Origin: Sphingomonadales bacterium
Lineage (GTDB): Bacteria > Bacteroidota > Bacteroidia > NS11-12g > UBA955
Direction: 5' to 3'
DNA length: 41,156 nt
Assembly (NCBI GenBank): GCA_016872175.1
Contig: VHBA01000017.1
Span: forward strand, 1 to 41,156
This document shows positions 1-20,654 of this stretch, piece by piece (the first letter of the stretch is position 1; every line of letters starts with the position of its first letter). The notes under the pieces were generated by a model. It saw only the letters and a list, made by a program, of their open reading frames with translations, was not told the origin of the DNA and did no database searches. The position numbers and the translations under genes are program-made.

Positions 1-355
1 TGGCCACCACGTGCACCACGGTTATGCCGCGCTCTTTCATCCAGGGCGTCCATGTAGCAGGGTTTCCGGCGCTTGTAAACACGATTTTCACGCCTTCTTC
101 GGCAATGATGTTCATGTGCTCCTCGATGTTGGGATACAACAGAGGAACATTCACGCCAAAAGGCTTATCTGTATGGGCTTTGCACTGCTGAATATGGTAG
201 CGCAGGATATCGGGATACATGCTGCCGCTGCCGATGAGTCCGAGTCCGCCGGCATTGCTGACCGCCGATGCCAGTTCCCAGCCGCTGCACCAAATCATTC
301 CGCCTTGTATGATGGGAAATTCAATGCCAAGAAGCCGGGTGATGCTGTTTTCCAT
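1..355 (-). CDS. Nitronate monooxygenase / FabK-like flavoprotein, partial
   Basis: The minus-strand frame opens with ATG at 355 and stays open to the window edge (118 codons). The N-terminus carries FPIIQGGM, then NAGGLGLIGSGS, then PFGVNVPL. These are the phosphate- and FMN-binding loops at the start of the nitronate monooxygenase (2-nitropropane dioxygenase) TIM barrel, a fold shared with the enoyl-ACP reductase FabK. Known members oxidise alkyl nitronates with FMN; FabK instead reduces enoyl-ACP with NAD(P)H. The catalytic region lies beyond the edge, so I cannot choose between them. The start is 1 nt past the pyrF stop, so the two genes are almost certainly co-transcribed. The family is confident, the exact reaction is not. 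Confidence 0.85.
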   Translation of the reverse strand, partial: MENSITRLLGIEFPIIQGGMIWCSGWELASAVSNAGGLGLIGSGSMYPDILRYHIQQCKAHTDKPFGVNVPLLYPNIEEHMNIIAEEGVKIVFTSAGNPATWTPWMKERGITVVHVVA

Positions 356-356
356 G

Positions 357-1172
357 TTAGTGCTTTATATCGGCCAGGTGTTGGGCCATTACCGTCTGCA
401 GTTTGCGGGCTTCTTCAGCGGCGGCCTCCGCAAAATCTTCGCCAGAAGAGGCATATAAAATACCGCGGGAACTGTTTACCAGCAAACCCGCATCCTTGTT
501 GAGTCCGGCCCGGCTAATATCGGACAAACTGCCGCCCTGGGCACCCACACCGGGCACCAGCAGAAAATGTTCGGGTATTGTTTTTCGGATTTCTGCCACA
601 TAATCTGCGCGGGTAGCCCCCACCACAAACATCAGGTTGTCAGGGTTTCCCCACTTGCAAACCGTTTCTATTACACGTTCGTAAAGCTTTTTACCTTCAT
701 ACCCTTGCATCTGAAAATCCGCATGTCCGGGGTTGCTGGTGAGTGCGAGACAAATGATCCATTTGTCCTTGAATTCCAGAAAGGGCCTCAAGCTGTCTTT
801 GCCCATGTAAGGCGCCACGGTAACCGCATCAAAACTGAGGGCTTCGAAAAACGCCCGTGCATACATGGTGCTGGTATTTCCAATGTCGCCGCGTTTGGCG
901 TCGGCAATTCGAAAAACAGACTTTGGTAAATAATCCAGGGTTTGTTCCATCCACTCCCAGCCGCGGGCACCATACTGCTCATAAAATGCGGTATTTATTT
1001 TATAGGAAACGCTGTATGGCAATGTAGCATTGATAATCTGCCGGTTAAACTCCACCATGGCATCGCCGTTTTTGGGCAGATGGATAGGCAGTTTTCCCAT
1101 TTCCGTATCCAGTCCGGTACAGAGGTAGCTGTTTTTTGAAAAGATTTGGTATACCAGTTCTTCGCGGGTCAC
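357..1172 (-). CDS. pyrF: Orotidine 5'-phosphate decarboxylase, type 2 subfamily
   Basis: This enzyme decarboxylates OMP to UMP, the last step of de novo pyrimidine synthesis, in the cytosol. The 271-residue protein has the long type-2 form: an N-terminal TGLDTEMGKLP stretch and the catalytic DAKRGDIGNTS segment with its Asp-x-Lys-x-x-Asp charge network, then VAPYMGKDSL and a C-terminal phosphate-binding VPGVGAQGG. The start is GTG at 1172; an in-frame TAA four codons upstream leaves no earlier option. A near-consensus -7 box (TAACTTCG, 1177-1184) ends 4 nt before the GTG and overlaps a small hairpin (GTTACG/CGTAAC, 1181-1200). The FabK/NMO-like gene follows 1 nt after the stop. A TonB receptor lies 102 bp upstream on the same strand, with a palindrome between them. 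Confidence 0.96.
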   Translation of the reverse strand: MTREELVYQIFSKNSYLCTGLDTEMGKLPIHLPKNGDAMVEFNRQIINATLPYSVSYKINTAFYEQYGARGWEWMEQTLDYLPKSVFRIADAKRGDIGNTSTMYARAFFEALSFDAVTVAPYMGKDSLRPFLEFKDKWIICLALTSNPGHADFQMQGYEGKKLYERVIETVCKWGNPDNLMFVVGATRADYVAEIRKTIPEHFLLVPGVGAQGGSLSDISRAGLNKDAGLLVNSSRGILYASSGEDFAEAAAEEARKLQTVMAQHLADIKH

Positions 1173-1207
1173 GATGCGAAGTTACGGAGTATTTCGTAAC
1201 GGATGCC

Positions 1208-1239
1208 AGACCTACCAGGTCTTAAGACCTTCTAGGTTT
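1208..1239. repeat. 32-bp imperfect palindrome between TonB-receptor gene and pyrF
   Basis: A perfect 14-bp core AGGTCTTAAGACCT (1217-1230) is extended by flanks that pair at 6 of 9 positions, giving 13 of 16 pairs overall. There is no T-tract on the minus side, so it is a poor intrinsic terminator. It could be a dispersed intergenic palindrome, an mRNA-stabilising hairpin after the receptor gene, or a dyad protein site. Confidence 0.6.
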
Positions 1240-1274
1240 TCGTTCAGGCGCGCACGCGCGAAGCTCCAAACCCA

Positions 1275-3233
1275 TCAACGCCCTACTGCCGCTGTAATGC
1301 CGGCCTTTATCCAACACCCCGGCAACTGCAAATTGCCCAGGTCCATCATGGGGCTGTCAAATACGTTGGTGACTTCGGCAAATAATTTTAGCTTTTTTAC
1401 GGTAGCCGTAAGCCGCAAATCCATGGCAAATGCATGCGGATAGGCCGTTTCTATCGTAGCTCCCGGTTTTTTATATCCGCCCATCCGCTTTTGCAAATAT
1501 CCCAGCGTTGTCAGGTTGATGTTCTTGTGCAGTTTCCAGTCAGCCTGCAAGGTATATTTTTGGCCAATAAAGTCCAGTGCATAAAAACTCTGAAATCCAT
1601 CGCTTTTTTTATCGGCATTCATAACAAGAAATCCGGCACCAATCTTCTGTAAAACCCCAGCCAGCGGCTTTTTGGGCACGTATTCCCAATAACCATCAAC
1701 ACCGAAATAAAACACCTGCGTGAGGTTTGCCGCTGAATCCACATTGCTGCCATTAAAGCGCACCCAGTCTATCAGATTTTTGCCATCGCGGGCAAATCCG
1801 GCAATTCTGAAATTATGCTTTTTATACATGAAGCGTGTTCCCAGTTCGTAGCAAACCGCCTCTTCGGGTTTCAGCAGTTTACTGCCTTTAGCACCCCCAA
1901 TGTTGTAATATAAATCGGTGTAGGTTGGCAGCCTGAAACCCTTGTTGGCAGAGGCAAAAATATAAACAGGCACTTTTTTGAGTGTTTTGACCACTTCAAT
2001 TCCCGGAAAAACACCATTGCCAAAGGCAGAATTGCGGTTTATCAAAATACCGCCGGACACTACCCAGTTGTTCCATTGTATTTTGTCTTCCAGGTAAACA
2101 CTCCAGTTTTCGCGCCTTGCGCTGCGTGTAAACCGCGCACCATCGGACCCGAATGGCACTTCCAATGTATCGCCCGGCTCACCAAGCACGTTGCTGCGCA
2201 CAAATTCCGAACGGTATTCCAGGCCAATGGATACATTGTGCACACCCAATCTCCGTGAAATGTTGTTCATTCCGCCCCGGGCTATGCTTTGGTGGTAGTT
2301 GTGTCCTGCATACCAGGCAGGGGTTGTGTCGGTGCCTCGCACATAGCGTTTTCCACTTCGCTGATACCGCCCTTCACCTTCACGGTAAAGTTCAAACCGA
2401 TCGTGGTTGTAGCGGTAATAGGAATTTCCCACCCACTGCCATTTACCCCAGTAATATTCCCAGTTCACGGTAATCAGGCGGGTTTGGGTGTATTCCTGCT
2501 GCAAGGGAAAGCGGCTGCTGTAAAAATTCTGTGCACCAAAGCGCTTGTTACCAATTCCCGCATTCATCCATATTTTGCCTGCCTTATCCTTGCGGTAAAG
2601 CTGACCAAATAAGCTGTTTTGTTCCATATCGGTATTGGTTGTAAAGCCATTGTGAGAAAGGGTTTGGCCAGAAATACCCGCTCCCCATCCTTTGTAGTAA
2701 CCGGAAGCACCGGCAGCCAGCCGTTTAAACCCGTTTTCCCCGCCAAATACAGAAGCAATTGCACTGTTTCTGTCGGGAAGCTGTGTTGTGAAATTTACCG
2801 CACCCGACATGGCTTTTGGGCCGTAAATACGGGATGCTCCGTTTGCGCTGATTTCCATGCTGCCATACATTTCCGGGGGTAAGAGCAGATTTAGGTTATG
2901 GTGGCCGGTCTGTGCATCGGTCATGGGTACACCGTCAAGCATGATGAGGGTTTGCTCGTAATTGCCGCCACGAATGCTCAAATCTCCTTGTACGCCCATG
3001 TTTCCACGGCTGCGCAAATCCAGCCAGGGAAGATAATCGAGGAAGTCTTCCACACTATGGACAGGGGCCTGTTGCAGGGTTTTTGCATCAATGCGGGCAA
3101 TGGAACTGCTTTGGGAAAGGGGACCGCGGGTTCTGCCGTCAAAAATCAGCAGGGTGTCTATGTTTAAGGTATCCTGAGCTGTTGCAGCAAGATTGCAAAT
3201 GGCCATTAATCCCAATAAGAGTTTTTTGATCAT
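1275..3233 (-). CDS. TonB-dependent outer-membrane receptor (BtuB-like)
   Basis: This is an outer-membrane active transporter energised by TonB. From the ATG at 3233 it is 652 residues: a signal peptide (MIKKLLLGLMAICNLAATAQ), then directly a plug domain (about 42-150) with DLSIRGG, TLIMLDGVPM and GASRIYGPKAMSGAVNF, then a barrel rich in alternating aromatic strands. It lacks the N-terminal carboxypeptidase-like domain of SusC proteins and has no SusD neighbour. This fits the small BtuB/siderophore class rather than glycan uptake. The substrate (cobalamin, iron chelate or other) cannot be read from sequence. An upstream in-frame ATG at 3254 would put seven residues before the signal peptide and overlap the promoter box, so 3233 is preferred. 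It ends in Arg rather than the usual aromatic residue. I see no partner ABC genes. Confidence 0.9.
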   Translation of the reverse strand: MIKKLLLGLMAICNLAATAQDTLNIDTLLIFDGRTRGPLSQSSSIARIDAKTLQQAPVHSVEDFLDYLPWLDLRSRGNMGVQGDLSIRGGNYEQTLIMLDGVPMTDAQTGHHNLNLLLPPEMYGSMEISANGASRIYGPKAMSGAVNFTTQLPDRNSAIASVFGGENGFKRLAAGASGYYKGWGAGISGQTLSHNGFTTNTDMEQNSLFGQLYRKDKAGKIWMNAGIGNKRFGAQNFYSSRFPLQQEYTQTRLITVNWEYYWGKWQWVGNSYYRYNHDRFELYREGEGRYQRSGKRYVRGTDTTPAWYAGHNYHQSIARGGMNNISRRLGVHNVSIGLEYRSEFVRSNVLGEPGDTLEVPFGSDGARFTRSARRENWSVYLEDKIQWNNWVVSGGILINRNSAFGNGVFPGIEVVKTLKKVPVYIFASANKGFRLPTYTDLYYNIGGAKGSKLLKPEEAVCYELGTRFMYKKHNFRIAGFARDGKNLIDWVRFNGSNVDSAANLTQVFYFGVDGYWEYVPKKPLAGVLQKIGAGFLVMNADKKSDGFQSFYALDFIGQKYTLQADWKLHKNINLTTLGYLQKRMGGYKKPGATIETAYPHAFAMDLRLTATVKKLKLFAEVTNVFDSPMMDLGNLQLPGCWIKAGITAAVGR

Positions 3234-3241
3234 GTGTTGGG

Positions 3242-3249
3242 CAAAAATA
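3242..3249 (-). promoter_or_regulatory. -7 box of the TonB-receptor gene
   Basis: TATTTTTG on the minus strand matches the Bacteroidota -7 consensus TAnnTTTG. It ends 8 nt before the ATG, which supports the start at 3233 and implies a near-leaderless transcript. No good TTTG sits at -33. Confidence 0.5.
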
Positions 3250-3285
3250 GGCAAACGGTTTATTTACCTCCCTAAGGTTTCCAAT

Positions 3286-3335
3286 AAAAAAAGGGCTCGA
3301 AGAGGGTACCAATCCGCTTCGAAAAGCCCTTTTTA
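3286..3335 (-). terminator. Rho-independent terminator of katG
   Basis: On the minus strand, 19 nt past the katG stop, GGGCTTTTCGAAG pairs with CTTCGAGCCC (one bulge) across a 14-nt loop and is followed by seven T residues. The A-rich 5' flank means it could also act on plus-strand transcripts. Confidence 0.85.
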
Positions 3336-3353
3336 TCATAAAACCTAATAATT

Positions 3354-5926
<2,573 letters not shown>

Positions 5927-7141
5927 ATGCTGTCGGGAAAGAATATCATTTTCAGCAGATGGTTTTTAGTCGCCATATATGCCTTGCTGGCGACCTTTAT
6001 CAGCATTCGTGGATATTATGCTCCGGGAAAAGACATGCCCGGATTTGAAGGAAAAGTTACAGCGTATAATAATTACATCGTTTTCAGCAATAGTTTTTAT
6101 CACTTATTGGACGGTAAAAACCTATATGCACAATATCCCGAAACGCACTCTTTTATCTGCCCGGCACAATACGATGTATTTAAGTACTCGCCCACATTTG
6201 CCCTGTTTTTTGCGCCGCTCTCCTTATTGCCGCTAGGAGTTGGACTCACACTTTGGAACCTGCTGAATTTGCTGGTATTTCTCTTTGCCATAAAAAAGTT
6301 GAAGCTACCACCCGTTCGTGAGCTGGGATTTGGCTTGCTGTCCATTCCTGAAATTTTTACCACCACCACCAATAGCCAGAGCAATTTACTGATAGCCGGA
6401 CTTCTGATACTGGCTTATATACATTTGGAAAAAGGCAAAACGCTTTTGCCGGTATTTTTTATTGCGCTCACTGTTTTTATCAAGCTGTTCGGCATATTGT
6501 TTTTTGCCCTTGTTTTACTGTATCCGCAACGCCTGAAAGCCTTGCCTGCAGCGGCAGCTGTGATGCTTGGATTGTTTGTTTTGCCCCTACCCTTTGGCGG
6601 CTGGGAAAGACTTATTCAGCATTACCGCGAATATTTCGGACTCATTTCCGGCGACCACGGCTTTTTTGTTAAATACAGCGTCATGGGATGGCTTAAAAGC
6701 TGGTTTGGCTGGCAACCCGATAAAAATGGTATCGTGCTGGGCGGGCTTCTCCTCCAATTTATTCCATTGTTGTTTTGGAAACGATTCAGTGATCGCAGTT
6801 TCAGAACCATTTATGCCGCATCCTGGCTTATCTGGCTGGTTATATTTAACCATATGGCTGAAAGCGCTACATTTATTATTGCGGTAGCGGGTGTGTTTTT
6901 GTGGTATTTTACGATTGCCGAAAGGAAAACGTGGCATACTGCCATCTTGGTTACGGTGATGATCTTCACCTGCCTTGGACCTTCAGATATTTACCCAAAA
7001 GCCTTGCGTATGCTCATTGTAGAAACCTGGCAACTCAAAGTGTTTCCCTGCATCCTAATCTGGATGATTTGTATGTACCAGCTTCTCGCAGATAAAGTTA
7101 AAACCAGCGTTTCTTCAGCACAAACGCCAGCCGCACCATAA
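5927..7141 (+). CDS. Polytopic membrane glycosyltransferase, GT87/DUF2029-like
   Basis: The 404-residue protein has about nine to eleven hydrophobic segments. After the first comes a periplasmic stretch with YNNYIVFSNSFYHLLDGKNLY and then KYSPTFALFFAPLSLLP. That layout (short first loop with a conserved acidic or polar motif, then Y-x-Y/S-P-P-x-F-x-LLxxPLxLLP) is typical of GT87/DUF2029 polyprenyl-phosphate-sugar mannosyltransferases in the GT-C fold. Known relatives add mannose to lipid-linked or cell-wall glycans; the acceptor here is unknown. ATG at 5927 is chosen because earlier in-frame TTG codons fall inside the terminator hairpin. A near-consensus TTATTTTG lies 7 nt upstream. The last 44 bp overlap the convergent ACR3 gene. 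Confidence 0.75.
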   Translation: MLSGKNIIFSRWFLVAIYALLATFISIRGYYAPGKDMPGFEGKVTAYNNYIVFSNSFYHLLDGKNLYAQYPETHSFICPAQYDVFKYSPTFALFFAPLSLLPLGVGLTLWNLLNLLVFLFAIKKLKLPPVRELGFGLLSIPEIFTTTTNSQSNLLIAGLLILAYIHLEKGKTLLPVFFIALTVFIKLFGILFFALVLLYPQRLKALPAAAAVMLGLFVLPLPFGGWERLIQHYREYFGLISGDHGFFVKYSVMGWLKSWFGWQPDKNGIVLGGLLLQFIPLLFWKRFSDRSFRTIYAASWLIWLVIFNHMAESATFIIAVAGVFLWYFTIAERKTWHTAILVTVMIFTCLGPSDIYPKALRMLIVETWQLKVFPCILIWMICMYQLLADKVKTSVSSAQTPAAP

Positions 7142-8132
7142 GAATTAACACCGGCACTTCCACCAGCGGACCGATTACCCCGGCAAACGCCTGTCCGCTG
7201 TTCAAACCAAAAACACCAACCGCAACGGCAATGGCTAGTTCAAAATTATTGCCGGCAGCAGAAAAGGAAACCGATGCTGTTTCCGGGTAGGCAGCCCCCA
7301 GTTTTTTGGCTACAAAAAACATCAACCCAAACATGATGCAGAAATACAACACCAAGGGAATGGCTACGCGAACCACATCCAGCGGAAGTTTAACCATGAG
7401 TTCTCCTTTTAAGGAAAACATTAAAACGATGGTAAGAAGTAAGGCTGTTAAGGTAATAGGCGAAATTCGAGGAATATATTTCTGATTAAACCATGCCTCT
7501 CCCTTTAATGCAATCAAGCCGTAACGGCTAACCACACCCATTAAAAAAGGTATTCCCAGGTAAATGCCCACCGTTTTGGCAATTTCACCAATGCCGATAA
7601 CTACCTGAATGGAATTCCGACCAAAAACTGTTGGCAGTTTTCCCAGAAAAAACCACGCGTAAATACTGAAGAGCAACAACTGCAACACACTATTTATTCC
7701 CACCAGCGCAGCAATGTATTCACGGTTACCATCTGCCAGTTCATTCCATACAATTACCATGGCAATGCAGGGTGCTATTCCAATTAAAATCAGGCCTGAC
7801 ATGTATTCAGGATAATCGTTTAGAAACAGTCCGCTGAGGAAGAACATGAGCAAGGGACCCACCACCCATGTGATAATCATGTTGGACAAAAACAAGCCCT
7901 TATTGGCAAACAAAGCCGGAATTTTCTCATAGCGCACTTTCGCCAGCGGCGGATACATCATTAAAATGAGTCCAATAGCCAGCGGTGAGTTAGTGGTGCC
8001 GTCTCCCATTCCCTGAATAAGTTCGGGAACTGAAGGGAAAACAACACCTATGCCTACACCTGCTGCCATGGCAAGAAAAATCCATAAAGTGAGATAACGG
8101 TCTAAAAATCCAAGTCTTTTATTGCCGGGCAT
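7098..8132 (-). CDS. arsB: Arsenite efflux permease, ACR3 family
   Basis: This inner-membrane transporter expels arsenite and completes detoxification after arsenate reduction. The 344 residues form about ten membrane segments in the BART/ACR3 fold. The conserved Cys of the fourth segment is in IGIAPCIAMVIVWN. The Glu in GNNFELAIAVAVGVFG is the other hallmark of ACR3 proteins. The sequence is unrelated to the E. coli ArsB fold; the symbol is used in the broad sense. The start is 4 nt after the arsC stop, so the three ars genes form one transcript. The 3' end overlaps the convergent GT87-like gene by 44 bp, and no terminator is visible in between. Confidence 0.96.
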   Translation of the reverse strand: MPGNKRLGFLDRYLTLWIFLAMAAGVGIGVVFPSVPELIQGMGDGTTNSPLAIGLILMMYPPLAKVRYEKIPALFANKGLFLSNMIITWVVGPLLMFFLSGLFLNDYPEYMSGLILIGIAPCIAMVIVWNELADGNREYIAALVGINSVLQLLLFSIYAWFFLGKLPTVFGRNSIQVVIGIGEIAKTVGIYLGIPFLMGVVSRYGLIALKGEAWFNQKYIPRISPITLTALLLTIVLMFSLKGELMVKLPLDVVRVAIPLVLYFCIMFGLMFFVAKKLGAAYPETASVSFSAAGNNFELAIAVAVGVFGLNSGQAFAGVIGPLVEVPVLILMVRLAFVLKKRWF

Positions 8133-8136
8133 GTTT

Positions 8137-8565
8137 TCAAATGTTTATGTGTTGGTTTATAAATTCCCTGCAATAGGTTTTAATCAGGTTACGGGTGTGT
8201 TCGAATGCTTTGTGGACTTCCTCTTCCGAGCCTTTGGCCCTGGCCGGATCCGGAAAATTTTCATGGAAAAGAACAGCCCTGTTGGGAAACCAGGGACACC
8301 GCTCTTTGGCATGGTCGCAAACCGTAATTACATATTCAAATTCAATGTTTCTGTATTCATCCAAATGGTTACTGGTGTGACCGCTGATATCAATGCCGTC
8401 TGCTTCCATAATGGATATGGCTTTGGGATTTACTCCGTGGGTTTCCACACCGGCGCTGTAAACATCCACTTTTTCGTTACCCATAATCACCAAGTAACCA
8501 TGTGCCATCTGGCTCCGGCAGGAGTTGCCCGTGCACAACACCAAAATCTTCTTTTTCGTCAGCAA
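8137..8565 (-). CDS. arsC: Arsenate reductase, low-molecular-weight phosphatase type
   Basis: It reduces arsenate to arsenite in the cytosol using a cysteine relay recharged by thioredoxin. The 142-residue protein has the P-loop CTGNSCRSQMA (nucleophile C11, then C16) near its N-terminus. C83 and C90 in VCDHAKERCPWF correspond to the redox pair of the plasmid pI258-type enzymes. The start is the rare TTG at 8565: it directly follows an in-frame TGA, and no ATG occurs before the P-loop. It begins 8 nt after the arsR stop and is followed by ACR3 after 4 nt, so expression is governed by the arsR operators. Confidence 0.95.
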   Translation of the reverse strand: MLTKKKILVLCTGNSCRSQMAHGYLVIMGNEKVDVYSAGVETHGVNPKAISIMEADGIDISGHTSNHLDEYRNIEFEYVITVCDHAKERCPWFPNRAVLFHENFPDPARAKGSEEEVHKAFEHTRNLIKTYCREFINQHINI

Positions 8566-8573
8566 TCAGGGGG

Positions 8574-8891
8574 CTAGTCCGGGTCAAAGGTTTTAAAGAA
8601 TTTTTTGAATGTCTTATTCATTTTTTTCCAGTTCTCAGCATCGATACAATAACAGATTTTGGAACCTTCAATTTCACCTTTAATGAGACCGGCAGATTTG
8701 AGTTCTTTCAGGTGTTGGCTAACGGTACTTTGCGATAAGGGAATTTCTTCCACGAAGTCTCCGCATACACATTTTTCTCTTTCTGCCAACACCCGCAATA
8801 TGGCAATTCTCGCCGGATGAGCAAGGGCTTTGGCAAAATCAGCAATGCGATTGTCGCGTACGCTAAATTCTTCAGATTTGGTTGTTCCCAT
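8574..8891 (-). CDS. arsR: ArsR-family metal-responsive repressor
   Basis: This is the dimeric winged-helix repressor of the operon, released from DNA by As(III)/Sb(III). The 105 residues contain the DNA-binding helices in SQSTVSQHLKELKSAGLI and, just before them, EKCVCGDFVEE. That CxC pair in the alpha3 region is the classic trivalent arsenic sensor; further cysteines (KICYC) lie in the wing. ATG at 8891 is preferred over a non-canonical extension upstream, which would run into the operators. Two operator palindromes lie immediately upstream. It is the first gene of arsR-arsC-ACR3. Confidence 0.94.
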   Translation of the reverse strand: MGTTKSEEFSVRDNRIADFAKALAHPARIAILRVLAEREKCVCGDFVEEIPLSQSTVSQHLKELKSAGLIKGEIEGSKICYCIDAENWKKMNKTFKKFFKTFDPD

Positions 8892-8900
8892 GATTATATA

Positions 8901-8916
8901 ATCGCAATAATACGAT
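8901..8916. promoter_or_regulatory. ArsR operator, proximal copy
   Basis: ATCGCAATAATACGAT is an imperfect palindrome of the type ATCGyAATATTrCGAT. It lies 10 bp upstream of the arsR ATG and covers the likely -7 region (TATTATTG on the minus strand). Repressor bound here would block the operon promoter. Confidence 0.75.
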
Positions 8917-8920
8917 AGAT

Positions 8921-8936
8921 ACCGCAATATTACGAT
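8921..8936. promoter_or_regulatory. ArsR operator, distal copy
   Basis: ACCGCAATATTACGAT is a second copy, 13 of 16 bases identical to the proximal one and in the same orientation. It starts exactly 20 bp away, about two helical turns, so two repressor dimers could sit on the same DNA face. Confidence 0.72.
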
Positions 8937-8950
8937 AAATTAATTATTAA

Positions 8951-8983
8951 CAAAAAAGACCGCTGTGAGAGCAGTCTTTTTTG
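8951..8983. terminator. Bidirectional terminator after pnp
   Basis: AAAAAAGACCGCT pairs with AGCAGTCTTTTTT (one mismatch) across a 5-nt loop, with A- and T-runs on the two sides. It sits 17 bp past the pnp stop and just upstream of the ars operators, isolating the ars operon from pnp readthrough. Confidence 0.85.
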
Positions 8984-9000
8984 TTTGGTAATCTGTATGG

Positions 9001-11220
9001 TTATGAATCCCTTCTGGGTCCACGATCATCGCGATGCTCGCGACGGGGCCCGCGATCTCCGCCACCTTCACGGCGCTCACGCGGTGCAGGCTCCACATAG
9101 CCTTCAGGCTTTGAAAGCAACACCTTGCGGCTGAGACGGAACTTACCGGTCTTCTTGTCAATTTCGATAAGTTTCACATCCAGCTTATCGCCTTCTTTCA
9201 GCACGCCTTCCATGCTACCGAGACGTTCCCAGGTAATTTCGCTGATGTGCAGCAAGCCGTCTTTGCCGGGCATAAATTCCACAAATGCACCGAAATCCAT
9301 GATATTTTTCACAGTTCCATGGTAGGTCTCCCCTACTTCAGGCACGGCTACAATAGCCCTTACCATGCCGCTGGCGATGCGCATGGCCTCGCCATTGCTG
9401 GAGAATATTTCCACAAATCCTTTGCCGTCGCGCTCTTCTATGGCCACTTTGGCTCCGGATTTAGCCTGAATATCCTGTACTACCTTACCACCCGGACCAA
9501 TTACGGCACCGATGTATTCTTTTTCAATCTCTATTACTTCTAGACGGGGTGCATGGGGCTTCATCTCAGCACGTGGGGCGGTAATTGCCTTGCCCATTTC
9601 TCCCAAAATGTGCAGTCTGCCTTCGCGGGCTTGTTGCAGTGCCTGGTAAACCATGTCCCACTTCAGACCATTAATTTTGATATCCATCTGGCAAGCGGTG
9701 ATACCTTCGGTTGTACCTACTACCTTAAAGTCCATATCGCCCAGGTGATCTTCATCGCCCAGGATGTCGCTGAGAATTGCATATTTATCAGAACCTTCCT
9801 TGCTGATCAGGCCCATGGCGATTCCACTCACCGCTTTTTTGATGGGAATGCCGGCATCCATAAGGGCCATAGAACCAGCACATACGGTAGCCATAGAGCT
9901 GGAACCGTTACTTTCCAGAATGTCGCTCACAATGCGCAGTACATAAGGAACATCGTTGGGCACCATCTTCTTGATACCGCGCAATGCCAGGTTACCGTGG
10001 CCAATTTCGCGGCGGCCGGGGCCTCTGTTTGGGCGAACTTCACCAGTAGAAAAACCGGGGAAATTGTAGTGCAGCATGAAACGGCTGTAGCCATAAAGCA
10101 TAGGTGCATCCAACAACTGCTCATCCATTTTGCTGCCCAGTGTTACGCTGGTCAGCGACTGGGTTTCACCGCGGGTAAACACCGAACTGCCGTGCGCTGC
10201 GGGGAGGTAATCCACCACGCAGTTGATAGGACGAATCTGGGTAGAACTTCTGCCATCGAGGCGGCGGCCGGTTTCCAGTATCATGTCGCGCATTACGTGG
10301 TATTCGGCCTCGTGGAAATATTTCTTTACCAAGCTCTTTTTCAGATCAGCATCTTCTGCACCTTCAAAGCGGGTAAGGTACTGATCCAAAATGGCACGGA
10401 AAGCCTCGTGGCGGTCGCTTTTGGCACTGCCGCTCTCGGCCACTTTACGAAGTTCAGCACTGCAATCGGCAATAACCTGCTTGCGCAGTTCTTCGTCGTT
10501 GGTTTCGTGGTTGTACTCGCGGGCTTGCTTGCGACCACCCAGCATTTCCACAAACTTGATCTGCTCGGCGCACTGGTGCTTGATGGCATTATGACCGAAT
10601 TTCAGGGCTTCCAGAAAGTCGGCCTCAGAAACTTCGTCCATTTCACCTTCCACCATGTTGATGTCGTGGGCGGTACCACCAACCAGCATGTCGATGTCTG
10701 ATTTCTCCAGTTCTTCTTTGGTAGGATTGATCACAAACTTACCATCGATGCGGCCTACACGCACTTCGCTGATGGGGCCCTGGAATGGAATGTCGGTCAA
10801 CATCAAAGCGGTACTGGCGGCAAGGCCCACATAAGTATCGGGCAGAATGTTCTCATCGGAACTAATAAGGAACAGGTTCACCTGGGTATCACCGTGGTAA
10901 TCCTCGGGAAACAACGGGCGCAGACAACGGTCCACCAGGCGTGAAATCAGCACCTCATAATCGGTGAGTTTGGCTTCGCGGCGGTGAAAACTGCCGGGGA
11001 TGCGGCCTACTGCGGCAAATTTTTCCTGGTAATCAACACTCAGCGGTAAAAAGTCAATGCCTTCGCGGGCATCGTAGTTGCTTACTACCGTAGCCAGAAT
11101 CATGGTTTTGCCTACTTTCAGTACGCAGCTGCCATGGGCTTGGCGGGCCAGACGACCGGTTTCTATTTCGATGATTTTACCATCGCCGGTGTCAAATTGG
11201 GTTTTTTGTATATTTAGCAT
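9001..11220 (-). CDS. pnp: Polyribonucleotide nucleotidyltransferase (PNPase)
   Basis: PNPase degrades RNA 3' to 5' with phosphate to give nucleoside diphosphates, as a ring-shaped trimer. The 739 residues contain two RNase PH cores (about 10-220 and 320-540), the second with EIGHGNLALRG and GSSSMATVCAGS, separated by the helical domain. A KH domain (about 555-620, VIGPGGKVVQDIQ) and an S1 domain (about 624-697, GTVKNIMDFGAFVEF and DGLLHISEI) follow. The last 40 or so residues are a low-complexity Arg/Gly/Asp tail, which may add RNA contacts. The gene follows rpsO, as in many bacteria, with an intrinsic terminator between them. No separate promoter is obvious, so some expression may come from readthrough. 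Confidence 0.98.
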   Translation of the reverse strand: MLNIQKTQFDTGDGKIIEIETGRLARQAHGSCVLKVGKTMILATVVSNYDAREGIDFLPLSVDYQEKFAAVGRIPGSFHRREAKLTDYEVLISRLVDRCLRPLFPEDYHGDTQVNLFLISSDENILPDTYVGLAASTALMLTDIPFQGPISEVRVGRIDGKFVINPTKEELEKSDIDMLVGGTAHDINMVEGEMDEVSEADFLEALKFGHNAIKHQCAEQIKFVEMLGGRKQAREYNHETNDEELRKQVIADCSAELRKVAESGSAKSDRHEAFRAILDQYLTRFEGAEDADLKKSLVKKYFHEAEYHVMRDMILETGRRLDGRSSTQIRPINCVVDYLPAAHGSSVFTRGETQSLTSVTLGSKMDEQLLDAPMLYGYSRFMLHYNFPGFSTGEVRPNRGPGRREIGHGNLALRGIKKMVPNDVPYVLRIVSDILESNGSSSMATVCAGSMALMDAGIPIKKAVSGIAMGLISKEGSDKYAILSDILGDEDHLGDMDFKVVGTTEGITACQMDIKINGLKWDMVYQALQQAREGRLHILGEMGKAITAPRAEMKPHAPRLEVIEIEKEYIGAVIGPGGKVVQDIQAKSGAKVAIEERDGKGFVEIFSSNGEAMRIASGMVRAIVAVPEVGETYHGTVKNIMDFGAFVEFMPGKDGLLHISEITWERLGSMEGVLKEGDKLDVKLIEIDKKTGKFRLSRKVLLSKPEGYVEPAPRERREGGGDRGPRREHRDDRGPRRDS

Positions 11221-11234
11221 AGTTTTATTTACGT

Positions 11235-11272
11235 AAAAAGCCCCGATACGCCGGAAGGCGTGCGGGGCTTTT
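11235..11272 (-). terminator. Terminator between rpsO and pnp
   Basis: AAAAGCCCCG, a short bulge and ACGCC pair with GGCGT, a bulge and CGGGGCTTTT around a tight 4-nt loop. It lies 35 bp after rpsO and 14 bp before the pnp ATG. It would attenuate pnp or be cleaved, as the rpsO-pnp spacer is in E. coli. Confidence 0.85.
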
Positions 11273-11307
11273 CTTATTAAGGGGTCAAAGGTGACGAGGC
11301 GGGAATA

Positions 11308-11577
11308 TTACTTCCTGATGCCTAGTTCCTTGATGAGTGCGCGATACTTAAAAATGTCTTTCTTGGCCAGATAATTCAGCAGACTGCGACGCTTACCTAC
11401 CAGGGTTATCAGGGCGCGCTCGGCACTTTTGTCCTTGCGCTGACCTTTCAAATGGCCGCTGATGTAGTTGATACGCTCGGTAAACATGGCAACCTGTGCT
11501 TCGGTGCTGCCGGTATTCTTTTCATTACCGCCGAACTTGGCAAAGATTTCTTTTTTCTGTTGGGTTGTCAGATGCAT
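11308..11577 (-). CDS. rpsO: 30S ribosomal protein uS15
   Basis: S15 is a primary 16S rRNA-binding protein that organises the platform of the small subunit. The 89 residues match the family length. Hallmarks are GSTEAQVAMFTERINYISGHL in the N-terminal half and LVGKRRSLLNYLAKKDIFKYRALIKELGIRK to the end. The ATG at 11577 is preceded by no Shine-Dalgarno site. The 117-bp upstream spacer has a weak TATATTAA box and a strong hairpin (11650-11682) closer to gmd. Followed by a terminator and then pnp. Confidence 0.98.
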   Translation of the reverse strand: MHLTTQQKKEIFAKFGGNEKNTGSTEAQVAMFTERINYISGHLKGQRKDKSAERALITLVGKRRSLLNYLAKKDIFKYRALIKELGIRK

Positions 11578-11649
11578 GTGTTCGTAAAATGGGCTGCGAA
11601 AATAATGCTTTTTTCTTAATATAGCGCACTGCAGGTATATTTTTTTGCA

Positions 11650-11682
11650 AGATTTGACAACTTTTGCAAAGTTTTCAAATCT
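11650..11682. other. Long hairpin between gmd and rpsO
   Basis: AGATTTGA-C-AACTT pairs with AAGTT-T-TCAAATCT around a 5-nt loop: 13 of 14 pairs. It is 12 bp past the gmd stop and lacks a T-tract on the minus strand. It could protect the gmd 3' end, terminate weakly, or act on rpsO transcription. Confidence 0.6.
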
Positions 11683-11694
11683 CTATCCCCGCCA

Positions 11695-12831
11695 TTATTC
11701 AAAATAATTGCGTGTATAGAAGCCCCCTTTGCGCAGGTAATCTTCTTTTTTCATGAGCTGCAAATCGCTCTGCATCATGTCTTTTACAAGGTCGTCCAAC
11801 GAATGGCGGGGTGTCCAGCCAAGTTTCTCTTTGGCTTTGGTGGCATCCCCCAGCAGCAAATCCACTTCGGTGGGTCTGAAATAGCGGGGATCCACGCATA
11901 CCAGTTCTTTTCCGGGCCTCAGATAGGCAGTATCAAGGCCGCAAGCCGAAGCTTTTTGTTCGTCTACAAAACCCAAAACGCCTTTTTCTTCCGCGCCATT
12001 GCCATGAAATTCAATACCCAAACCCACTTCGCTGAAAGCTTTGCGCACAAAATCACGGATTTCTGTGGTTTGTCCGGTGGCTATGACAAAATCTTCGGGA
12101 TTATCCTGTTGCAGAATCAGGTACATGGCCTCTACATAATCCTTGGCATGGCCCCAGTCGCGTTTACTGTTTAAATTTCCCAGATATAGTTTTTCCTGCA
12201 ATCCCAGTGCAATTCGTGCCGCAGCCCGGGTGATTTTGCGTGTTACAAAAGTTTCTCCGCGGATGGGACTTTCATGGTTGAACAAAATACCATTGCAGGC
12301 ATACATCTTATAGGCCTCGCGGTAGTTAACCGTAATCCAATAGGCGTACATCTTGGCTACAGCATACGGACTACGCGGATAGAACGGCGTGGTTTCACTC
12401 TGCGGAACAGCCTGTACCAAACCATACAACTCAGAAGTACTGGCCTGGTAAATACGGGTTTTGTTGGTCAATCCCAAAATACGCACAGCTTCCAGAATGC
12501 GCAAGGTTCCCAGTGCGTCACTGTTGGCTGTGTATTCCGGGGTTTCAAAGCTCACCTGCACATGACTCTGTGCTGCCAAATTATAAATTTCATCAGGTTG
12601 TACTTCCTGTATGATGCGGATGAGGTTGGTAGAGTCGGTAAGATCGCCATAGTGCAGGTGCATTTTAGCCCCCGGCATGTGTGGATCCTCATAAATATGA
12701 TCTATACGCTCAGTATTGAACAGCGAGCTTCGACGCTTTATACCATGTACGGTGTAACCTTTTTTCAGCAAAAATTCGGCGAGGTAGGCGCCATCCTGTC
12801 CGGTTATCCCGGTAATGAGTGCAGTTTTCAT
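11695..12831 (-). CDS. gmd: GDP-mannose 4,6-dehydratase
   Basis: It converts GDP-D-mannose to GDP-4-keto-6-deoxy-D-mannose, precursor of GDP-fucose, GDP-rhamnose and related surface sugars, with tightly bound NADP. From ATG at 12831 it is 378 residues, the family norm. The Rossmann motif is [12 protein letters not shown]. The catalytic set is Thr/Ser-x-Glu in [10 protein letters not shown] plus YxxxK in [31 protein letters not shown] is a Gmd signature that includes the tetramer-forming loop. A TAnnTTTG box ends 6 nt before the ATG, excluding a longer N-terminus. The usual partners (fcl, mannose phosphate genes) are not in the window, so the final sugar is unknown. Confidence 0.97.
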
Positions 12832-12837
12832 GCGCAG

Positions 12838-12845
12838 CAAAAATA
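12838..12845 (-). promoter_or_regulatory. -7 box of gmd
   Basis: TATTTTTG on the minus strand, ending 6 nt before the gmd ATG. TTTA about 22 bp further upstream is a weak -33 candidate. Confidence 0.5.
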
Positions 12846-13018
12846 CAACATGAGCAGCGTTGTTGGATAAACGAAAAATCAAGGTATAAATCACCCCAAA
12901 AAAATGAAAGAAAACAAATGACAATAAAATGACTTTTGCAACATGTTGATGTTCATCACATTGTTGCTCATGCTGAGCATTGCGAGATAGGGGAAATATC
13001 AATAGTGTGGCTTTTGCT

Positions 13019-13026
13019 TATATTTG
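13019..13026 (+). promoter_or_regulatory. Possible -7 box of the arylsulfotransferase pseudogene
   Basis: TATATTTG fits TAnnTTTG exactly and lies 22 bp before the ATG at 13049. No TTTG is found at the proper -33 distance. A TGCTCA/TGAGCA dyad with a 3-nt centre (12965-12979) lies upstream in the 217-bp divergent spacer with gmd. Confidence 0.4.
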
Positions 13027-13048
13027 AAAGAGAAGAGCGAGAACGAGG

Positions 13049-14707
13049 ATGAATTACTACTCCAAAAAAACAAGGCTTGCTGTGGGCCTTTTTGATTGCT
13101 TTCGCAATCAAAATTAAATCGCAGCAACGCACGGTTGGTTTAACAAAACACCAGGAAACCAATCATCAAAAAGGGTATTACTTGTTGTCGCCTATGGTAA
13201 ACCAGGCTAAAAACTCATACTTGCTGGATGATTGCGGTCGGGTTGTGAAGACATGGGAGGGTGGCGGCATGCCAGGAACAGCCTGTATACTTGGCCGCGA
13301 TGGCAGTTTAATACGTACAATTTCGGTCTTTAATCCATACATGGCGCTGGGTTGTGGCGGAGTCATCGAAAAATTTGACTGGGCCGGCAACCGTATATTG
13401 CGCTGGGCTCTTACGGACAGCAATGAGTCCCTTCACCATGATATTGCAGAATTGCCCAATGGAAATATTCTGGCTATTGTATGGATTAGAAAAACCGCTG
13501 CTGAGGCCGAAGCACTTGGAAGGACTTTTCCACTGGGCAAAACAGATATTTTTTTGAGCGTATAATAGAAATCCAACCCAAAGACACCAATGATGCAGAT
13601 ATTGTGTGGGAATGGCGTTTGTGGGACCAAACCATACAAAACACAAGTTCTACGAAACCCGGATATGGCTCTCCTGACGAGCATCCCGAGCTGCTGGATA
13701 TAAATTACTACGATGCAGCGGATATTGGCCGCGACTGGCTCCACCTAAATGGCATTGACTATAATCCCGGACTTGACCAAATTGTAATTATTTCAAGAAG
13801 TCTGGGCGAATTTTATGTTATTGACCACAGCACTAACCTGATTGAAGCGAGCGGACATTCCGGCGGACGCTGGGGTAAGGGTGGCGATTTTCTGTACCGA
13901 TGGGGCAATCCTGAGGCATATGGCAGGGGAACTCCTCAGGAACAAAGACTGTATGTTCCTCACCACGCCCATTGGATTAAACAAGGCTTGCCTCATTCCG
14001 GTAAGTTTTTGGTGTTCAATAACGGGCAAGGTAGACCCGGAGGGCCGTACAGCACCGTCGACATGGTGGCACCTCCATTAGACATTAACAACAAATACAC
14101 CATACAACCCGGTAAAGCATATCTACCTGCATCCGGAATTGAAAAATACAAGGCAACAAATCCTACCTCATTCTATTCCGCTGTGGTTTGCGGAAGCTAT
14201 CTGCTTAAAAACGGCAACCTGCTTACTACACATGGATTAAAAGGAACTGCCATAGAAACAGACAGCATCAACAATACGGTGTAGTCATATGTCAACCCCT
14301 TCAGCAGTGCGGGATTATTGGCACAAGGTAATGCCCCGGGAACCAACACTGTTTTTCGCTATGAGTTTTACCCTACTGACTTTTCAGGTTTTACGGGCAA
14401 GGATTTAACTCACGGTGTGGAATTGGAGAAAAATCCTTATTCAAAAAGGCTTTGCGAGAACAATAACATTGGCATAAAGCCATTGGAATCGAAAAATTCT
14501 TTTATCAACCCCAACCCGGCAGGAGATTTTGCGTTTGTGCTTGCCGAAACAGTTGAAAACGGCCGTATTTACAATACTGCTGGGCGCTGCGTGGGAACTT
14601 TTAATGGCAACCGAATAAATTTGTCCAGATTTAAGCCGGGAATATTTACGGTTACTTTTACTGCCGATGGAAAACACCAACAGGAGAAATTGCTGAAGGT
14701 AGAATAA
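13049..14707 (+). pseudogene. Broken arylsulfotransferase (ASST family) with T9SS sorting tail
   Basis: Intact relatives are secreted proteins that move sulfate between phenolic compounds, or uncharacterised ASST-like propellers. Three reading-frame pieces join into one protein. The first frame (ATG 13049, MNYYSKK) leads into a good signal peptide if the A7 run at 13064-13070 were A6. The second piece (QQRTVGL to GKTDIF, including SLHHDIAELPNGNILAI) joins the third (ERIIEIQPKD onward) if the T7 run near 13549-13555 were T8. An in-frame TAG at 14282-14284 then sits where TGG would give VWSYVNP. The end (SFINPNPAGDF to the C-terminus, with RIYNTAGR) is a type A T9SS sorting domain. Family assignment rests on propeller-like motifs and is good but not certain. 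Confidence 0.8.
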
Positions 14708-14774
14708 GCAACAGGTTCTTATATTGTTAAGCTGCTAAGTACAAAATAACGACCAAAGCCCTTAATTTGCGTTG

Positions 14775-15698
14775 ATGTTTGTCCGCGGCATCATAGCTTT
14801 TTTGGTTTGCTCGTTGTTTGCAGGTCATGGTCAGGTACAAGCCACGCAAGCACCCAAAGACACAGCTCAACAACCCCATCCGGTTGAATTTCCGGCCTTA
14901 AAACTCGGTCAACACATCGTTTACCACACCGGATTTGCGCTGGTTTACAACGAAGAACACGAACAGGCCGACTGGGTGGCCTATGAACTCACCGCCGAAG
15001 AAACCCAAAAATCGTTTGAAAGGGGCGATGTTTTTATGAAGGACCCGCTGGTAACCACAGGCACCGCCGCCGATGAAGATTACCTGCACTCGGGATATGA
15101 CCGCGGACACCTGGCGCCCGCCGCCGATCTGGGCTATTCGCTTTCTTCCATGGCAGAATCGTTTTACTACAGCAATATGAGCCCGCAGGTTGCCGCCTTT
15201 AACCGCGGCGTGTGGAAACGGCTGGAAGGACAAGTGCGTGTGTGGGCCCGCAACAATGGTGCTGTTTATGTGGTGACCGGCCCGGTGTTAAAACCCGGCC
15301 TGCCCGCCATAGGGGCTAACAAGGTTTCAGTACCTAAACTATACTACAAGGTCATACTGGATTACCGCATGCCCGAATACAAGGCGCTTGGATTTGTATT
15401 GCCCAATGCAGGCTCTTCGCTGCCGCTGACGCAATTTGCCGTTACCATCGACAGCGTGGAGCGCCTTACAGGAATAGATTTTTTCCCCGCCCTGCCCGAC
15501 AAAGATGAAAACACACTCGAATCCAATATTTGTCTGCCCTGCTGGAAATGGAGCACAAGCACACAATCCGGCGGAAAAAAGCCCACTGCTAAGGCGGGCG
15601 ATGCAGTACAGTGTGGTGCTTCCACAAAAAACGGAGGACGGTGCACACGCATGACCAAAAGCCCGAACGGAAACTGCTGGCAACACGGTGGAGATTGA
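14775..15698 (+). CDS. Secreted DNA/RNA non-specific endonuclease (NUC1 family)
   Basis: NUC1 enzymes cleave single- and double-stranded DNA and RNA with one Mg2+ ion in a beta-beta-alpha-metal site. The 307-residue protein begins with a signal peptide (MFVRGIIAFLVCSLFAGHGQVQA), so it acts in the periplasm or outside. The catalytic motif is DRGHLAPAAD, with the metal-ligand Asn likely in NMSPQVAAFNRGVW. VYVVTGPVL and LPNAGSSLPLTQFAV are further family landmarks. The final 30 residues add a compact Cys/His unit (C-x9-C-x10-C-x2-H) that looks like a small zinc ribbon. ATG at 14775 is preferred over an overlapping TTG one codon earlier; TTAATTTG lies 5 nt upstream. It probably serves nucleic-acid scavenging or biofilm turnover. 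Confidence 0.93.
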   Translation: MFVRGIIAFLVCSLFAGHGQVQATQAPKDTAQQPHPVEFPALKLGQHIVYHTGFALVYNEEHEQADWVAYELTAEETQKSFERGDVFMKDPLVTTGTAADEDYLHSGYDRGHLAPAADLGYSLSSMAESFYYSNMSPQVAAFNRGVWKRLEGQVRVWARNNGAVYVVTGPVLKPGLPAIGANKVSVPKLYYKVILDYRMPEYKALGFVLPNAGSSLPLTQFAVTIDSVERLTGIDFFPALPDKDENTLESNICLPCWKWSTSTQSGGKKPTAKAGDAVQCGASTKNGGRCTRMTKSPNGNCWQHGGD

Positions 15699-15748
15699 TA
15701 CGGGTGAATGATTTATATCGGGTATAATTAAAGCAACAGTTTAATAAT

Positions 15749-17101
15749 TTGTTTCCGGCTGCCTTTATAAAATCCCTGCAATCTACCCATCCGAAAGAAG
15801 AGGTAAATGCATTGTTAGAGGCTCTGCAAACGCCTGCACCGGTAAGCATTCGGGTAAATACCCAAAAAACCGGGCTGAAACCAACATCCGCATCCGCTGT
15901 TCCCTGGTGTGAGCACGGCTATTACCTTCCCGAAAGGCCTTTGTTTGCTGCCGATCCTGCCTTTCATGCCGGGCATTACTACGTGCAGGAGGCGGCCAGT
16001 ATGGTGGAAGGCAGCATTGTAAAGGGCTTGCTTGCTGCCTTGCCCGAAACCGCTATAATCCTGGATTTGTGCGCTGCTCCTGGCGGTAAAAGCACGCACG
16101 TGGCTTCAGTGCTCAGGGAGGGCGATATCCTTGTGGCAAATGAAGTGATCGGCACGCGCACGCCCATACTGTCCGAAAATCTATGCAAATGGGGTGCTGC
16201 CAATCATATCGTTACAAAAGCGGATGCATCGCGTTTTGGAAATAGCGAAGCCCACTTTGATATTGTGGTAGCCGACCTACCCTGCAGTGGCGAGGGGATG
16301 TTTCGCAAAGACCCTGCCGCCATCAATGAATGGAGCGAAAACAACGTAAAACTTTGCGCCGAAAGGCAACAGCGCATTGTAACCGATATATGGCCGGCCA
16401 TAGCCCCGGGCGGTTACTTGATATACAGCACCTGCACCTTCAATACCGCTGAAAACGAAGACAATGTAAACAAACTGGCCGCAGACCTTGGAGCAAACAT
16501 CCTGCAGCCCGATTTTTTGGGCAAGGAGGCCTTTTATTCGCTGCAAGAGGGAATGTACAGGGCGTTGCCACACAAGACAATGGGCGAGGGTTTTTTTGTG
16601 GCTGTGATGCAAAAAACCGGGGCGGGCTCAAAAGCAAAATCGCACGGAAAACAACGGATAAAAGCGACCTCCGCCACGTTTGCCGGATTGCCCCAAAACA
16701 TGCACGCCGTGGAAACCCCGCAAGGCCTTTGGGGCATGTTCACCCCAAACCCGGATGCATGGCATCAACTGTTGGCAGAGCTGCCGGGCATTTATGCCGC
16801 AGGAACACCCATAGGACAGGTGTTTCATGGAAAATGGAAACCGGATACAGCCGTGGCGCTTTTGCAGCATGGTAAATCCGGTGAATGGCCTGAATTAATC
16901 CTCAATAATGCTGAAGTGATGGCCTTTCTGCGACGCGAATCCCTGCCCAACACAAATAGGAAAGAGGGTTTGCACCGGGTGGTGTGGAACGATGTCTCTA
17001 TGGGTTTTGTGAATGCCAACCGCCACCAATGGAACAACCTATGGCCCATGGAATGGCGCCTTAGAATGCGGGTGTCTGAGCCTGTTAGGGTTATTTGTTG
17101 A
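15749..17101 (+). CDS. RsmF-like rRNA (cytosine-C5) methyltransferase
   Basis: This is a SAM-dependent enzyme of the NOL1/NOP2/Sun family, most like RsmF, which makes m5C in 16S rRNA. The 450 residues start with the short RsmF-type N-domain (PAAFIKSL, then SIRVNTQKT). The SAM motif is LDLCAAPGGKSTHVAS. The two cysteines of the m5C mechanism lie in DLPCSGEGMFRKDP and YSTCTFNTAENEDNV. The C-terminal third (about 300-450) corresponds to the PUA-like domain of RsmF. The start is TTG at 15749: an in-frame TAA lies eight codons upstream with no ATG between, and the N-terminus aligns from there. It ends 17 bp from the convergent menA stop. The target cytosine cannot be read from sequence. Confidence 0.9.
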   Translation: MFPAAFIKSLQSTHPKEEVNALLEALQTPAPVSIRVNTQKTGLKPTSASAVPWCEHGYYLPERPLFAADPAFHAGHYYVQEAASMVEGSIVKGLLAALPETAIILDLCAAPGGKSTHVASVLREGDILVANEVIGTRTPILSENLCKWGAANHIVTKADASRFGNSEAHFDIVVADLPCSGEGMFRKDPAAINEWSENNVKLCAERQQRIVTDIWPAIAPGGYLIYSTCTFNTAENEDNVNKLAADLGANILQPDFLGKEAFYSLQEGMYRALPHKTMGEGFFVAVMQKTGAGSKAKSHGKQRIKATSATFAGLPQNMHAVETPQGLWGMFTPNPDAWHQLLAELPGIYAAGTPIGQVFHGKWKPDTAVALLQHGKSGEWPELILNNAEVMAFLRRESLPNTNRKEGLHRVVWNDVSMGFVNANRHQWNNLWPMEWRLRMRVSEPVRVIC

Positions 17102-20123: not shown

Positions 20124-20654
20124 CTACACAAACCGCGGATCCGCTTCCATTACATGTCCGCAGGTTTTACAGGTACGCAAATACTCGGAACCATAATAAT
20201 GCTTAAAATGGGGCAGAAAATCAGTTTCTATATTCTGTAATTCAAAATAGGTTTCGTGCAGCTTGGTGTTGCATTTATCGCAAAACCATAGCAACCCATC
20301 TTTATAGCCTTTGTTTTCGCGCACGCGCTCAATAACAAGCCCCACGCCCCCGGCCATGCGCCCGGGACTGTGCGGCACACCGGCAGGATGCAGGTACATA
20401 TCGCCTGCCTTCAGCGGCACTTCCACGCATTTACCATCCACCTGAATTTTGATAAGGGCTTCGCCTTCCAGCTGGTAAAACAGCTCTTCGGTTTCATTGT
20501 AGTGGTAATCTTTGCGGGCATTTGGACCTCCCACAATCATCACGATGTAGTCGGTGCCTTCGGGATACAGGTTTTTGTTGGCCACCGGTGGTTTCAGCAG
20601 GTGCTTGTTTTCCTCAATCCACTGGTTCAGGTTAAAAGGCATGCGTATGTTCAT
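20124..20654 (-). CDS. nbaC: 3-hydroxyanthranilate 3,4-dioxygenase
   Basis: This cupin enzyme opens the ring of 3-hydroxyanthranilate with O2, giving the precursor of quinolinate (de novo NAD) or of further catabolism. The 176-residue length and residue numbering match the bacterial enzyme. The Fe(II) ligands are H51, E57 and H95, with substrate-contacting R47 and R99. The C-terminal rubredoxin-like iron site is C125-x2-C128 (FCDKCN) and the later CKTCG. The kynurenine-pathway partners are not in the window. A -7 box TAAGTTTG ends 7 nt before the ATG. A palindromic 36-bp element lies just upstream of that box and covers where the -33 element would be. Confidence 0.97.
   Translation of the reverse strand: MNIRMPFNLNQWIEENKHLLKPPVANKNLYPEGTDYIVMIVGGPNARKDYHYNETEELFYQLEGEALIKIQVDGKCVEVPLKAGDMYLHPAGVPHSPGRMAGGVGLVIERVRENKGYKDGLLWFCDKCNTKLHETYFELQNIETDFLPHFKHYYGSEYLRTCKTCGHVMEADPRFV

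Follow-up and report, generated by a model that had tools for sequence, protein, structure and literature searches.

An arylsulfotransferase gene in three readings

We identified a single arylsulfotransferase (ASST) gene at positions 13049-14707 of the window, which is the whole contig C17 (41,156 bases) of its own genome G000 (2.26 Mb in 91 contigs, 98.68% complete). The gene lies in three readings on the plus strand and is flanked by gmd, encoding GDP-mannose 4,6-dehydratase (11698-12849, minus strand), and by a gene for a DNA/RNA non-specific endonuclease (14772-15695, plus strand). The main frames of the window are open. On the plus strand upstream of the ASST gene, the sequence TATATTTG (13019-13026) resembles the -7 element of Bacteroidota, with the consensus TAnnTTTG; the place aligned with it in G005, a genome of the same genus, reads TATCTTTG. 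The ATG start codon (13049-13051) is common to G005 and to a second genome of the genus, G006, and the frame that opens with it closes after 22 codons. Three-frame translation showed that a second frame is protein-like from about 13074 to 13562, and that a third frame runs from about 13550, is interrupted by a TAG at 14282-14284 and is then open to the stop codon at 14705-14707. The N-terminal piece (13074-13547) contains most of the signal peptide and is 84% identical to G005 at the amino acid level, the central piece (13556-14281) contains the putative catalytic region and is 83% identical, and the C-terminal piece (14285-14707) includes a type A sorting tail for the T9SS and ends with the stop codon.

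A MAFFT alignment with G005 and G006 placed three lesions in the gene: a net gain of one base in an A-rich stretch (13064-13073, including seven A at 13064-13070), a net loss of one base at a run of seven T (13549-13555), and a TAG (14282-14284) where both relatives have TGG. The exact place of the first lesion is uncertain, as a blastn alignment starting at 13069 puts the first extra base at 13093. The original prediction held that the protein rebuilds from signal peptide to T9SS tail only with three corrections, that the reading past each lesion is still protein-like, and that the third lesion is a base substitution and not a homopolymer error; the translation, the alignment and the domain matches described below agree with it on each of these points. 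In G005, G006 and in G001, a third genome of the genus, the orthologue is open as one frame. A TTG at 13077 was considered as an alternative start after the first lesion and rejected as not conserved, since G005 has CTG for this Leu, which is part of the signal peptide.

Both frame changes had been read as changes of run length, A6 to A7 and T8 to T7. The A7 and T7 runs are real in the window sequence and the net changes were found as predicted, but the base gained in the first lesion could be other than an A. Around the second lesion, G005 and G006 have ATCCTATTTGAG and ATTCTATTCGAA, which encode Ile-Leu-Phe-Glu; the Leu codon is CTA in both of them and TTG in G001. Judged from these sequences, loss of a base from the Leu codon would be at least as simple as shortening of T8 to T7. 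One base lost from such a codon leaves exactly the present T7, and the run may thus be the result of the frame change and not its cause.

The presence of a run of seven A or T at both frame changes had also led to the suggestion that slippage makes the gene a phase-variable on/off switch. A secreted product would suit such a switch, as most phase-variable genes encode environment-exposed products according to a published study (PMC3711429). We nevertheless consider a switch very improbable, because neither run is present at these sites in G005, G006 or G001, because the third lesion is a substitution that cannot slip, and because both runs and the stop would have to change together. Moreover, runs of exactly seven are common (120 in 231 unflagged genes of the genome comparison described below), and the deletion itself may have created the T7 run.

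Programmed frameshifting was considered for the second break. Heptamers of the T TTT TTG type can slip, and positions 13550-13556 read T TTT TTG in the upstream frame, so that a -1 slip there leads exactly into the frame that follows and is in register to connect the first piece with the second. G005, G006 and G001 have a continuous gene and lack the heptamer, and such a slip would repair neither the stop nor the first break, for which a shift in the other direction is required; a role for frameshifting therefore seems highly doubtful. Equally remote is a reversible or partly readable state, in which slippage at A7, -1 frameshifting at T TTT TTG and stop codon readthrough would together yield traces of a full-length secreted sulfotransferase. 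If such a state were real, the frame breaks would tune the amount of an exoenzyme.

Family assignment and predicted function

The ASST pieces score 26.8 and 39.5 bits against PF05935 (curated cut-off 24.2), covering positions 5-110 and 132-341 of the profile, and the open orthologues reach 75.6 to 82.3 bits. The C-terminal piece matches the T9SS tail (PF18962/TIGR04183), with a TIGR04183 score of 29.5 bits at 14507-14698 against a cut-off of 23. PF18962, the Pfam model of the tail, stays below its cut-off in G005 and G006, and G005 passes TIGR04183. G000 contains 80 matches to T9SS tails, 78 of which are over the cut-off, and SprA is present but split by a tandem duplication.

A profile built from 27 homologues and compared with solved structures ranked E. 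coli AssT (PDB 3ELQ; PF05935) first (E 6.8e-07), while a search of solved structures (PDB) with one protein as query gave no match at E up to 1. The active-site residues of AssT are His252, His356, Asn358 and His436, as given in PMC13426309. His356 and Asn358 align, in a significant stretch, with a conserved His and Asn that are kept in the central piece of the window copy. AssT is a remote relative, however: the stretch around its His252 aligns at an insignificant score only (0.2 bits), and in the profile alignment its sulfated His436 is displaced by one residue from the conserved His, whose codon is 13961-13963 in the window. The window gene further differs from AssT in its added T9SS tail and in being broken. 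The intact members are probably PAPS-independent sulfotransferases. An intact gene, as in the sister species, would give a product that is exported by its signal peptide and then carried across the outer membrane by the T9SS, and, by analogy with the family, the enzyme would move sulfate groups between phenolic compounds via a histidine intermediate. The broken gene could still give a 22-residue peptide or fragments; it should not give an active enzyme.

Orthologues in the genus and the conserved locus

A match to the central piece was found in 28 of the 58 genomes searched, the window's own included. Three genomes of the same genus contain an open ASST frame without stops: G005 (557 codons, 83% identity to the window copy), G006 (551 codons, 77%) and G001 (545 codons, 65%). 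In a fourth, G003, the gene is cut by a contig end and is 82% identical over the part on its contig. The alignment with the closest intact homologues, which the original prediction had proposed as a check, thus placed all three lesions against open genes.

The locus is conserved. Synteny at the DNA level with contig C4 of G005 extends from position 1 to 14683 of the window in four blocks at 74-80% with short gaps, synteny with G006 and G001 is found upstream, and G003 is syntenic across 13727-17058. In G005, G006 and G001 the ASST gene is located at the same place beside gmd, and the order in G006 is gmd, ASST and a frame that we take to be superoxide-dismutase-like. In G002 (2703-2803), gmd lies about 100 bases from this superoxide-dismutase-like frame, with no ASST between them, and in the fetched locus of G004 another frame is located beside gmd and ASST is absent. 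No ASST was found in G002 or G004 (98% and 99% complete), either by homology or by PF05935. From these locus comparisons it follows that only some species of the genus have ASST, and the two genomes of the same genus without it indicate that the gene is dispensable in the genus.

A search of G000 for intact paralogues, by PF05935 or PF14269, found no second ASST. No second genome of the same species was found. Many homologues of the window ASST are located near another gene related to it, with both on one strand, whereas the window genome gave a single copy.

Conserved positions and branch-specific changes

To define conserved positions, 109 loci that matched the G005 protein were collected, and in 91 of them the expected strand carried a frame. 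From these, 88 frames were at least 430 residues long and 70 were within 430 to 1000 residues; 66 of the latter together with G005, G006, G001 and G003 made up an alignment of 70 rows (69 distinct). The TAG at 14282 replaces a Trp found in all 70 of the aligned homologues, and this stop counts for decay. Apart from the stop, the window has Gln in the central piece where His is kept in 69 of 69 homologues, and Leu in the N-terminal piece where Trp is kept in 68 of 69. In a leave-one-out comparison over 47 near-invariant columns, the window copy departs at three, stop included; among the homologues, 66 of 70 depart at two or fewer such columns and 14 of 70 at two or more. Given the latter number, the two missense changes by themselves carry little weight, and they are within the range of other homologues. 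The window copy may have begun to lose conserved residues.

Synonymous and nonsynonymous changes were counted per branch in place of dN/dS, as synonymous sites are saturated for most pairs. With G006 as outgroup the G000 branch has 95 synonymous and 55 nonsynonymous changes, compared to 105 and 52 on the G005 branch (Fisher p = 0.55), and with G001 as outgroup the counts are 94/48 and 80/57 (p = 0.22). The comparison with G003 gave 54/38 and 60/40 with G005 as outgroup (p = 0.88), and 67/34 and 49/33 with G006. The branch counts thus indicate no excess of nonsynonymous change on the G000 ASST branch. Since nonsynonymous change is not raised, the breakage, if real, is recent, as had been predicted and as the open orthologues at the same locus also suggest; the absence of an excess equally fits an intact gene with consensus errors.

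Quality of the assembly

It is conceivable, although we consider it unlikely, that the gene is intact in the cell and that all three lesions arose in the assembly, by errors of sequencing or consensus or by mixing of strains. Two observations speak for such errors: downstream of each lesion the conservation is about equal to that of the intact relatives, and G000 does contain frame-breaking duplications in genes that should be functional, one of them being SprA, although 78 T9SS tails of this genome pass the cut-off. The kinds of frame breaks in the assembly were determined by setting 839,103 bases from G000 against 858,950 from G005. For 258 G005 frames a G000 counterpart was found, and 27 of these were flagged mechanically, 13 with a frame change. 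The reverse direction gave 12 flagged genes, three with a frame change, in 265 frames, so the rate is higher in G000. The 13 frame-change genes were read at the DNA level, and the 14 stop-only genes were judged by eye from the printed context; the latter mostly look like upstream extensions or antisense frames. Looser flagging gave many more window frames with stops, by eye of the same kind. The frame-change test misses breaks near gene ends, for example the first ASST lesion.

Five of the 13 frame changes fall at perfect tandem duplications, namely C2:20420 (20420-20477), C8:1025 (1025-1077), C8:20273, C8:30825 and C8:34182, and C8:26444 is a 23-base insertion. At C2:23066 one extra T in a run of six lies near the frame start, beside the promoter-like TAACTTTG, and this site may be non-coding. 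C21:21957 and C21:31908 are also close to frame ends, C2:11515 has two extra bases, and the C9 case is of low identity. SprA, on contig C19 of G000, is broken by a 20-base tandem duplication (8279-8318), and another gene broken in this way is presumably a UvrD-like helicase. Perfect tandem duplications with a unit of at least 16 bases (16 to 62) number 12 in the 839 kb of G000, mostly in C2 and C8 and none in C17, compared to one in the 859 kb of G005, and they are probably an assembly artefact. A literature search on short tandem duplications and assembly error gave no occurrence of 'short tandem duplication' among the matches listed. SprA on contig C1 of G006 is also split in two frames (around 1486-1496), at a place different from that in G000. 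Decay of the whole T9SS is not claimed, as short open frames at tails also occur in G005 and G002 (by eye, among the matches listed).

The commonest artefact seen in G000 is therefore tandem duplication and not the single-base indel found twice in ASST. Homopolymer error, which the original prediction had allowed for the first two lesions, became less likely in the comparison with G005: the 258 compared genes contain 159 homopolymers of at least seven, and two are within 40 bases of a detected frame change. One is the ASST T7; the other is an A7, read as T7 on the plus strand, and belongs to the gene at C8:11487. Both genes also have an in-frame stop. The latter gene (C8, 11487-12334), which we take to be short-chain-dehydrogenase-like, resembles the ASST gene in its lesions: besides the in-frame stop, its frame breaks close to the 3' end, next to the A7. 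The occurrence of lesions of different kinds together in both genes favours decay over random error. The stop substitution in ASST is not a homopolymer error. Furthermore, ASST is the only flagged gene among the 29 window genes compared with a G005 counterpart, the other 28 being unflagged, and the chance that three random lesions among those 29 genes share one gene is 0.002, which makes three errors within one gene improbable.

A probable recent gene inactivation

Lesions in the assembly, open orthologues and a conserved locus are all observed, and the disabling lesions stand out against intact orthologues. We infer that the lesions are also present in the living cell, not only in the consensus, and likewise infer which function was lost. 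The ASST gene is thus likely a pseudogene of recent origin, whose intact form would encode a secreted arylsulfotransferase that is independent of PAPS and belongs to the T9SS cargo. In this lineage a gene dispensable in the genus would have taken two one-base frame changes and a nonsense mutation. It is similar to the singleton frameshifted genes and pseudogenes described in PMC3711429 in that its frame breaks are backed by homologues and are not found in close relatives. According to the same study, a singleton validated by BLASTp should more often reflect a sequencing error than a true indel; ASST differs from such singletons in combining three lesions of two kinds in one gene. A literature search on arylsulfotransferase pseudogenes in flavobacteria gave no mention of arylsulfotransferase among the matches listed.

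The frame breaks in the G000 assembly are of two kinds, and those due to tandem duplication call for support by reads before they are interpreted biologically. The finding is of modest use for the annotation of T9SS cargo. For the genus, in which the gene is open, missing or broken depending on the species, it points to a probable ongoing loss of a secreted sulfotransferase.
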